Source: Candidatus Altimarinota bacterium | Lineage (GTDB): Bacteria; Patescibacteriota; Gracilibacteria; Absconditabacterales; Absconditicoccaceae | Reading direction: 5' to 3' | Assembly: GCA_027046965.1 (NCBI GenBank) | Contig: JALTWR010000029.1 | Span: 1-32,148, forward strand | Length of the DNA stretch: 32,148 nucleotides | Shown here: in pieces, positions 2,255 through 15,748 of the stretch | Layout of the letters: each line of letters starts with the position of its first letter | Position numbering within the stretch: the stretch's first letter is position 1 | Made by a program: the position numbers and the translations under genes | The notes under the pieces: generated by a model | Databases searched by the model: none | Seen by the model: the letters and a program-made list of their open reading frames with translations, nothing else | What the model was told of the DNA's origin: nothing

Positions 2255-3427
2255 TTATTTAATATACTTTGACAACCACTTTGCAGCTACATCTTTACCA
2301 CCAAGTCCTACAGCTAATGCAAAAGCTACAGCCAACGCACCAACTACAAGACCAAAAGTCAAATTTATGATATCCTGTCCTATTCAAATTTGCCCTAGCC
2401 CCATAGCCAAAGAAATAAATACTATAGCCCATCTTACGATTTCCGGAGCTAGTTTAGATTTAGAAGTAGATTTCAAAATATCAGCTACTAAACCTGAAAG
2501 GTAAAAACCAAAAGCAATTACTACAACTCCTACTAAGACATTTATACCAAAATTTATAATTTCATTTAACACATCAGATATCACACTTAAACCCAATCTA
2601 TTGCTAGCTTCCAAAGATGCTATTAAAATCACAAAAGTAGCAGCCAAAACCCCTCCCAGATCAGATAAAGACAAATTAGAATCCTTACTCATACCAAACT
2701 TGGTAGCAAATCCATCAATTCCAACCCCATAAAGTAGCTTAGAAACAATCTCTTTAACTATTTTTGCCAAAATTATTCATACTCCCAATATTACTCAAGC
2801 TACCACTAAATTAGGTATAAAATCCCATATACCTTGAACTAACTGATTTACTGGATCATATAGCCACTCAATACCCAAAGGTCAAATAATAGTTGGTAAA
2901 AACATCAAAAATATAAACCAATAAGCAGCACTGGCTAACGTGTCACTCAAAGAAGTACCTTTAACATAATCACCAGCTTTAGCGTCTAGTCCAATTTCAT
3001 CAAACCAAGTTTTAAGGGTATTTCTAGTTATATGAGCACCTGCCCAGACTAATACAAACAATCCTAGAGCAGTGAAAAATGCTGGCAAAAAGTTAATTAA
3101 ATCGTTTACCACCTTTTCCAATGGAGCTGTCAGGGAAGTTAATTTCAAAAGAGCAAAAAACTGATTTAAAATCAAAAGCAAGCCAACTACATAAACCAAA
3201 ATCCCTATAAAATTACCTACATGCTCTAAATTTACAGGTAGACCAATTTTTTTAAATACTTTTTTCAAAAATTTACATTCTCAAACAAATCTAGCTGTTA
3301 GTCTGGAAATCCATTTAACTACGAACCATCATATACCTAAAAATACAAAAGCTATCAAAAAATTAACCATACTGCTCATCAGCTGGTTTACATCAATACC
3401 CGCAAAAAATGATGTCAAGTTTTCCAT
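2255..3427 (-). CDS. multi-TM protein related to mechanosensitive channels (conserved TM-helix type)
   Basis: The product has 390 residues and many hydrophobic helices: one near 18-36, a pair near 65-85 and 105-130, then several in the second half. Amphipathic TM-helix repeats of the kind found in MscS-related proteins (conserved TM helix family) appear twice, each with a Gly/Ala-rich helix followed by a charged loop. The C-terminus ends with an AVGLGGKDVAAKWL-like segment, which in MscS-type proteins marks the end of the pore-lining helix. The soluble beta domain that normally follows in MscS is missing, as the gene stops ten residues later. It may be a channel, a channel subunit or a membrane scaffold. 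The start is the ATG at 3427; no SD is visible. It is the first gene of a likely two-gene unit with the SF1 helicase. Confidence 0.75.
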
Positions 3428-3591: not shown

Positions 3592-4455
3592 ATGTATATT
3601 TATACCTTTGAAACGTCCTATCCAGGTCCTACTTCCTTAATACTTGGCTCCGTTCACTGAAACGAAAAATGAGGCTCTCAAGCTATCATCGAATTTGTAA
3701 AACTTCTAAAACATAACAAAGCAAAAATCAAAAAATGAAAAGTTATATTAATCTCTCATGTTAACGAGAAGGCATTTGAACAACAAAAAAGATTTATAGA
3801 CTATGATTTAAACAGACTTTTCAAAGATGACTATCCAAACCTAAACGAGATAAAAGATACTCATGAATATCAATTGGTTCAAAAACTTAAACCCATTTTG
3901 GCAAAGGCAGACTTTATGCTAGATTTACACTCTATGGAAGCAAGTTGAGAACCATTTGCCTTTGCAGAAAAAAAAGTATTATCTTTTGCTAAAAAATTAG
4001 GGATACCACACTTGTTGCGGTGATGGTGACAACTCTATCCAGATGTGACTTGATGAGATACTGAAAATTATGTAAATTCCAATTGATGACTAGCAATAAC
4101 CTTAGAAGGTGGCTCACATAACGATCCACAAACATTTAAAAATCTTTTTCAAGGGCTATTGAACTTTTTGGTAGCCACCTGACAAATTGAAGAAACTTTT
4201 TTTAAGCCCCTAGGAGAAGAGTCTAAAGTTTTACATCTCGTAGATGCTTATGTATCCAAAAATTCCTATCCAGACTTCAAATACCTCATAAATCCCTCTC
4301 ACTTGAAACCTATCTCTAAATCAACCCCTATATTAAGAGATTGAAAAAATATCTACAAGGCACCATACGATTTCACTATGGTAATGCCTATTAGTGAAAC
4401 CAGAGTCAAAGACGGTAGAGAGGTGTTTTTCATAGCAAAAGAAGAATGAATATAG
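3592..4455 (+). CDS. AstE/AspA-type zinc-dependent deacylase (M14-like)
   Basis: The 287-residue product carries the zinc and catalytic signatures of the succinylglutamate desuccinylase/aspartoacylase family. These are GSVHGNE (His22 and Glu25 as metal ligands), YDLNRLF, DLHS (His113 as third ligand) and ITLEGG (Glu172 as the likely catalytic acid/base). Members hydrolyse N-acyl amino acids or related amides; the substrate here is unknown. Both glycines around the zinc motif (after His22 and at Gly27) are written TGA, supporting UGA=Gly. The gene stands alone after a divergent promoter region and precedes an ATP-grasp gene on the same strand. AstE-like enzymes next to ATP-grasp ligases can form and cleave related amide bonds, but a functional link here is inference. 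It starts at ATG 3592 without an SD. Confidence 0.85.
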
Positions 4456-4546: not shown

Positions 4547-4975
4547 ATGAGTGTTTTATCACCAGAGGCTTCTACATTACCTCTATCTCAACCTTATCCA
4601 GAGATTAATTTAGAAAAGATTAAAGACCCTGTCCTTATTATTCCCGATGTAGACCCAAACTATTTAAAAGATCCAGATTCCCTAGATTATATTTATATTG
4701 CCCAAAGATACATTTGGTTAGCACTTAACTATGCATCTAAGGAAAAACCTGTAATATTATTTTTACCCGAGACTCACGACACATTGGCATTACGAAATTT
4801 TATAATGCAAAAATTTCCCCCTTTAACCAAGCGAATATCTTTAATTCCAGTAGACCCTAGATTTTATCTGCTATCCAATAGCATATCAGGTTTACTTCCC
4901 GATATACCTTGAATAAGACAAAATCCTCAACAATCTCCGGAAAATTTTTTTAGAGAAGTACCACCGGATAGTTAA
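4547..4975 (+). CDS. N-terminal part of a split ATP-grasp protein
   Basis: This 142-residue ORF starts at ATG 4547 and ends at a TAA (4973-4975). After that stop the same frame stays open for 427 more codons and encodes an ATP-grasp domain. The sequence has alternating hydrophobic strands and helices (an LIIPDVDPNY segment near 28-37, VILFLPETHD near 66-75, ISLIPVDPRF near 95-104) resembling the Rossmann-like pre-ATP-grasp domain that precedes many ATP-grasp catalytic domains. I read it as the front half of the gene continued at 5132-6256, cut by a premature stop, or as a separately made domain. The 91-base gap upstream is very AT-rich, with a weak TTGACT near 4482. Function is not known. Confidence 0.65.
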
Positions 4976-5131
4976 GTTGCACAAATTGTAACATCAACTC
5001 AAGAAAGTCTATCAAATGCTTTATGAAAAGCTCCACCTCTAGAAATCAGAACATATTCTCCTCATCCCAAATTTCTTATACCTACTGAAACAATTAATAC
5101 CGCTAACCCTCAAATTTACGGAAAAGAAGAT

Positions 5132-6256
5132 ATGTCAAAAATTGCTCAATTAAAAGGTAAAAAATGGATGCATCCTTATCGAAAAGATGAAAAATATCCT
5201 TATCCAGACATTGTACAACAAATAGGGAAAGAATATCTACCTTTGGGATATTTTGTACCTACTAGTGACGGCCTAAAATGAATTGAGCATGCAATATTAA
5301 AATTAAATTGCAATGCTAAAAAACCATATAAATTCATAATAAAACCGATTTTAGCCTCATCAGGGGAATGAATTACATTCGCCCAAATTATTGAGAAAAA
5401 TTGAAAAATTGAAATTAACTTTTATCAAGACCCTAATTTTGAAACTCCTCTGGAGAATGCTAAAGAGATATTTCAAATGGGAGATATAATTGTTGAAGAA
5501 TTTTTGGACTTAAATAACTGAAACTTAAAATTAAATGGCCAGGAGATTGCCTCATCATTTGTTATCCCTTATTCAAATGGTAAAGTTGAAAAATTTAAAG
5601 ACAATCAAATACTTTTACAATTAACTCAAAATGGACATTATATTGGCTGAGCATTAGTAGATATAACAACTGCCAGCGAATTATTTTCAATAGAAACTTC
5701 GACCTTACAAGAAGAACTAGAAAAGTTAGAAAATAGCATACAAAAATTGATAAACACTCTATGATTACAATGATCAGGAGCTATAGACATATTAGTAACC
5801 AAAGATGGTCAATTTGTTATTTCTGACCCAAATTTATGAAGAGATACTGGATCTATGCCGCTTAGAACAGTAAAACAATTATTCAAAAAGCAACCTTCCA
5901 TAATGGTAAATGTTCAATTATCAATTAACAAAGGCTTCTTACCATCTCCAATTTTAGAACTATTCAGGTTTTACTCAGTTGATCATGAATACGGAGCTTT
6001 GCCTATGACAATTGCTCAAGATGATGAACATGCCCATATGAGTGTCCTTTTACGAGGCAAAAATATGAAAGATATAAATCAGATGTATACAAATTTACTA
6101 GATACTATTAATGCGTTACAAAATGCATATGCATCAAATACCATACAAGAAGCTACAAAAACCGCTCTCTTTTCTATTTTTTCACAATCTTCACCTGATA
6201 AAAAAACACCTGAAAGAACACGTGTATGAACTATCTCCTATTCTCAAGGCTTATAA
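5132..6256 (+). CDS. ATP-grasp domain protein (carboxylate-amine ligase type), downstream half of a split gene
   Basis: From the first in-frame ATG the product has 374 residues, but open, coding-like sequence extends back to 4976, just after the TAA that ends the upstream ORF. ATP-grasp features appear in order: FIIKPILASSGEG (nucleotide-binding Lys and glycine-rich loop), IIVEEFLDL (adenine-binding hinge), and GAIDIL followed by VISDPNLGRDTGS, whose Asp/Asn/Arg set suits Mg-ATP binding. Such enzymes join a carboxylate to an amine via an acyl phosphate. The substrate is unknown; the layout is reminiscent of peptide-ligase-like ATP-grasp proteins. Several glycines are UGA, including the one before RDTGS. 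If only the part from 5132 is made, the catalytic domain is mostly retained. Confidence 0.7.
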
Positions 6257-14710: not shown

Positions 14711-15748
14711 ATGAACTACATTCACATCCAAAAAGATGGAAAAAATATCTTTGTTATTGATATGAAACAAGAAAAAGACAAATTTTTTTCTCAGTTATCT
14801 GTTAAAGGTATTCAAAAATATCTAAAACAAAATAAAAAAATATTAATACTAGCTAATAAAAAAGGATATTCTTCGGGCATTATATGTCAAGATTGCGGTT
14901 ATATTCCTCGTTGCCAAAAATGTGATGTGTCCATTTCTTACCACAAAGACAAAGCATGAAATTTTTTTGGTCTATGTCATATTTGCAAATCCCATTACGA
15001 ATATCCTTTAACTTGTCCCAGTTGTTGAGGAGCAAATTTAAAATTTTTTGGCACTTGAACTCAGCAAATTCAGGAATATCTGTCAATTAACTTTAATACA
15101 TCTGCCCTTATTATAGAAAGCCAGCAAGCCAATTCTCCCAAAAAAATCCAAAAGATTCAAGAGCAAATACATTCTCACCAAATACTAATAGCCACCTCTC
15201 TGTTAACTTTCCCCCCTCATAACCGAAAACCTGATTTAGTAATCATATTTAATGCAGATATAGGCCTCAACGTACCAGATTTTAATGCAAATTATAATAA
15301 TTTTTTATTTATATATGAAACCATTAAAAATTACTCCCCAAAAGCTTTTTTAATTCAGACATTTAATCCAGAAGCTTACAGTATTAAATACGCCACAAAT
15401 TTAGATATTAACTGATTTAAAAAGCAAGAGCTCGAATATAGGCAACAGTTCGCATATCCACCTTTTGGCCAGTTGGCAGTTTTGCTTTACAAAAATGAGA
15501 TAGAAGAAAAATTATTTAACAAAGTCAACAAAATATATCAAGATTTAGAGTATCTAAAGGAAAAGCTAAACTTTGAAATTGAAATTTTTCCCACTCCTCC
15601 TCTGGTATACAAAATGTTTGGTAAATACAGATACAATATCATACTCAAGGGAGAAAATGTTGAATCATTTTTGTTTGAGGCTAACAAACATATCAATTTT
15701 CAAAAGGAATGATTTCAAATAGATATCAAACCTCTTAATTTAGTATAG
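14711..15748 (+). CDS. priA: PriA-like protein: C-terminal helicase half only
   Basis: This 345-residue protein matches only the second half of primosomal helicase PriA, which is normally about 700 or more residues. It starts with IDMKQEKDKFFSQLS (the region opening helicase lobe 2). It goes on through ILILANKKGYSSGIICQDCGYIPRCQKCDVSISYH and LCHICKS...TCPSCGG, which give eight cysteines for two zinc sites, then GTGTQQIQEYL and a PDLVIIFNADIGLNVPDF segment where PriA has its motif V/VI region. The usual QGRAGR-like motif appears altered and Walker A and DEAH are absent, as is the 3'-DNA-binding domain. It cannot be a complete ATPase alone. No upstream in-frame extension exists because hpt ends three bases before the ATG. 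Confidence 0.8.

Follow-up and report, generated by a model that had tools for sequence, protein, structure and literature searches.

A lone in-frame TAA in a predicted ATP-grasp ligase gene of a bacterium reading UGA as glycine: a probable young nonsense mutation

In the window, a whole contig of 32,148 bases from a draft genome (855 kb, 32 contigs, 94.8% complete) of a Candidatus Altimarinota bacterium, one predicted ATP-grasp ligase gene is interrupted by a single in-frame TAA at codon 143, and we consider it probable that this is a dispensable gene recently inactivated by a nonsense mutation. According to this reading, one gene for an ATP-grasp carboxylate-amine ligase (start 4547, stop 6254-6256) would have gained the inner TAA only recently, as a genuine and presumably fixed mutation, and RF1 would end translation there, releasing a fragment of 142 aa. 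Since such a fragment would be without the ATP-grasp core, the gene would probably be switched off, with its remainder still undecayed. No second disabling mutation was found in the frame, and the intact invariant ATP-grasp residues also fit a functional gene.

The organism is a user of genetic code 25, in which TGA is glycine. In 385 kb of the window's genome (45% of the genome), from which all codon, stop and start statistics were derived, TGA occurred 21 times per 1000 codons of ORFs of at least 200 codons, slightly more often than GGA, and when read as glycine it was the commonest codon for this amino acid. Stops were TAA in 182 and TAG in 54 of the 236 long ORFs sampled. Moreover, a tRNA with a UCA anticodon, labeled tRNA-SeC by ARAGORN, was located in the same genome (L036:9373-9446), and the single class-I release factor gene scored above the prfA and below the prfB cut-off; RF2 was not found in this 94.8% complete genome, RF1 being the sole release factor detected. 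Table 4 (TGA as Trp) was also tried, and glycine was preferred because the loss of RF2, the UCA-anticodon tRNA and the presence of TGA at glycine-like positions (for instance SGEGI and QGSGAID) fit code 25. Code 25 is known from Gracilibacteria and Absconditabacteria (PMC8629427, PMC6851277), and the genome resembles the described members in its heavy sense use of UGA, its UCA-anticodon tRNA, the failure to find RF2 and the retention of RF1; no difference from them was seen, UAA still being a stop in both.

The first-pass annotation had described the forward frame 4547-6256 as continuous except for the TAA, and translation with table 25 bore this out, giving 142 residues, the inner stop, 426 further residues and the final TAA. 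The 569 codons include eleven TGA codons, read as glycine, and are open under code 25 but for the stop at codon 143; the first ATG, GTG or TTG beyond it is the ATG at 5132, 52 codons downstream. From base composition, TAA and TAG would make up about 5.5% of random triplets, so that the 426 open codons past the inner stop are far beyond chance, and the 52 codons taken alone would stay open with a chance of about 5%. Using a codon model trained on the long ORFs of the genome (in bits per codon), the in-frame coding score was +0.118 before the TAA, +0.198 in the 52 codons and +0.158 thereafter, while the remaining forward frames were negative throughout (-0.31 and -0.59 over 4976-5131). The value for the 52 codons compares with an in-gene median of 0.188 and lies above the 99th percentile of off-frame windows on the forward strand; over the same interval, an antisense frame scored similarly (+0.219) but contains a stop. 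Furthermore, the G+C content of these codons is gene-like (0.34), with values of 0.18 and 0.23 in the adjoining intergenic stretches, a difference that is not decisive alone because one quarter of the uncovered stretches reach 0.345.

Start sites were evaluated by their sequence context. Upstream of its starts this genome has A/T-rich sequence and no Shine-Dalgarno motifs, which makes a Shine-Dalgarno test uninformative for choosing between starts; a position matrix built from 199 starts and 1206 internal ATGs was used instead. With this matrix the ATG at 4547 scored 7.95, the 86th percentile of starts, a value reached by 0.1% of internal ATGs, and it is most likely where the gene begins. The ATG at 5132 scored -4.25; only 1.5% of starts are as low, and 37% of internal ATGs score at least as high. 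It is thus probably an internal methionine, and it is unlikely that a second gene begins at this position. As a general observation, GGAG, GAGG or AGGA precede 5.5% of gene starts against 15% of internal ATGs in the 385 kb; starts avoid such sequences, and translation initiation in this genome therefore appears independent of them. The features of the interrupted gene and its immediate neighbors are listed in Table 1.

Table 1. Features of the interrupted gene and adjoining ORFs in the window.
Feature	Position	Strand	Evidence
AstE/aspartoacylase-type hydrolase, intact upstream partner	3592..4455	+	Pfam AstE_AspA_cat 5.5e-19; same pairing in L103, L086, L094
5' part of ATP-grasp gene (142 codons), likely real start ATG 4547	4547..4972	+	Open frame, positive coding score, start context
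Lone in-frame TAA	4973..4975	+	No UUA/CUA-anticodon tRNA among 41; RF1 present
52 coding-like codons from TAA to next ATG/GTG/TTG	4976..5131	+	Coding score, G+C 0.34
Remainder of gene: predicted ATP-grasp core and final stop; ATG 5132 probably internal Met	5132..6256	+	Profile match, invariant positions, start score
Intact downstream ORF, 296 aa	6318..7208	+	Open under code 25

By its core, the protein is assigned to the ATP-grasp ligases from sequence comparison. A close copy of the gene was found neither in 353 genomes of the class nor among GTDB contigs, IMG/VR, phages and plasmids, and a profile scan of viral contigs found no relative either. None of the other class genomes holds a close copy, so the wider lineage can do without the gene. 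The neighboring AstE-type gene led to distant relatives; its homologues occur in 64 of the 353 class genomes, the window's own included. Among those examined, an ATP-grasp-type ORF of about 410-460 aa adjoins the AstE-type gene in L103, L086 and L094, and a fourth relative, L136, was without AstE inside the fetched stretch; in all four the ATP-grasp ORF is single and uninterrupted. Identity to the distant relatives is 19-24%. A profile built from eleven relatives, with the window protein left out, matched residues 258-445 (E 4e-12), and the invariant ATP-grasp positions of the family are kept, among them K266, D427, N429 and R432.

Weak matches to Dala_Dala_lig_C, RimK, ATP-grasp_3 and MvdD-like proteins at the end of the domain that binds metal and ATP, together with the conserved invariant residues, liken the protein to ATP-grasp carboxylate-amine ligases, the enzyme class predicted for the intact protein; unlike those ligases, it stays below all curated cut-offs, including those of the Pfam ATP-grasp models, and falls in no named subfamily. 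The first-pass annotation had taken the 52 codons as coding and as following directly from an N-terminal domain. Their coding character was upheld by a score like that of the gene interior, whereas the region around the TAA did not prove recognizable as a domain, since the N-terminal part had no match in Pfam or NCBIfam and the relatives-only profile gave no significant match upstream of residue ~258. Homology across the TAA was considered on the strength of an aligned HPY motif and of the residues preceding ATG 5132, but neither the relatives-only profile nor shuffle tests supported it. An AlphaFold model made from the single sequence was too poor for use (mean pLDDT 35.7).

On the question of read-through, we searched the 385 kb for stops with 45 open codons on each side, and 38 of the 629 so found were coding-like on both sides. 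Most of these 38 have a start codon within a dozen codons, as in adjacent genes. Of the eight others with the longest gaps, seven were translated; judged by eye, these are most plausibly neighboring genes, such as one for a sigma factor ahead of one for an HU-type protein, or antisense frames. The candidate lone stops elsewhere in the 385 kb were set aside on these grounds. The TAA at 4973 is hence the only clear single-gene case, with no second in-frame UAA of this kind inside a gene of the 385 kb, which argues against a general read-through of UAA. A local accident is the simplest account of it.

Two such accidents, a young nonsense mutation or a sequence error, had been proposed in the first-pass annotation, and either fits all data. 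The main rival to the young nonsense mutation is that the draft assembly carries a consensus error or the allele of a minority strain at this site, the gene being intact in most cells. A draft in 32 contigs with 94.8% completeness, a gene intact in its remaining part and a case unique in 385 kb are in keeping with it, but a consensus error would have to be a substitution, whereas many assembly errors are indels, and the TAA, at position 4973 of 32148, does not sit at the edge of the contig; we regard this rival as rather unlikely. The preferred young nonsense mutation shares with nonsense-disrupted bacterial pseudogenes of recent origin the single in-frame stop, the otherwise undamaged frame, the patchy occurrence of the gene and a failure to detect a suppressor tRNA. 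It differs from them in that no near intact orthologue was found, so that the ancestral intact state is deduced from the coding signal and the distant relatives only. Moreover, an organism that reads UGA as glycine can also gain nonsense codons from its UGA codons in one step, and such events are therefore to be expected.

Two proteins, an N-terminal one of 142 aa and a C-terminal one of 374 aa (longer if a rare start were used), might arise by reinitiation or as split subunits, as the long open frames kept on both sides and a non-canonical ATT, a rare start type, ten bases past the inner TAA (at 4985) would allow. This two-subunit proposal lost ground nonetheless: the 52 codons ahead of ATG 5132 look coding, the context of this ATG is that of an internal methionine, no ATG, GTG or TTG lies in frame between the TAA and 5132, and the distant relatives are single ORFs, which makes it quite improbable. 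Nor did the distant relatives available (L103, L086, L136 and L094) show the gene split in two with the stop conserved. Read-through of the UAA at a useful rate, yielding some full-length enzyme, would suit the unspoiled downstream part and a code that is already altered; against it, UGA is the only codon altered, UAA serves as the principal stop, RF1 is present, no other gene in the 385 kb shows such a case, and no UUA or CUA anticodon was found among the 41 tRNAs detected by the Rfam model, which were all within stretches typed by ARAGORN (with about 5% of the genome absent from the assembly). The suggestion of read-through in an altered-code organism is thus unsupported, and we judge it very improbable. 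It is similarly hard to credit that a full-length ligase is made by site-specific read-through of UAA, or that reinitiation directly past this codon yields a second subunit that works, with RF1 only and no dedicated suppressor tRNA.

If the TAA is real, it marks a routine gene-loss event, in which a module of AstE and ATP-grasp genes is dispensable in this lineage, and UAA retains its stop meaning in an organism with UGA as glycine. The handling of UAA by a bacterium with RF1 alone would be at issue only in the unlikely case of read-through, and the finding is an ordinary one.

The pairing of AstE-type and ATP-grasp genes, plus the M20 peptidase, ArgG and ArgH homologues of L103, suggests a role in amino-acid or N-acyl amino-acid metabolism, and within the module the ligase may form an amide bond and the hydrolase may cut one. 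In L103 (297-7166, genome G136) the M20 peptidase, ATP-grasp, AstE, ArgG, Lyase_1 (ArgH-like) and GNAT protein genes follow one another on a single strand, and AstE likewise adjoins Lyase_1 genes in L095 and L096; an arginine-type pathway of an unusual kind may exist in these reduced genomes. In another lineage, also recoded for TGA (genome G129), the AstE homologue at L099:2709-3593 is interrupted by a single in-frame TAG (3180-3182), and here it is thus the other gene of the module that is broken up. As for the window itself, the ORF downstream of the interrupted gene had no match in Pfam or NCBIfam, and its layout, by eye, is reminiscent of transketolase-like enzymes in their C-terminal half. 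A further ORF at 14711-15748 looks PriA-like by eye, with the zinc-binding and C-terminal helicase parts only, the N-terminal part being missing.
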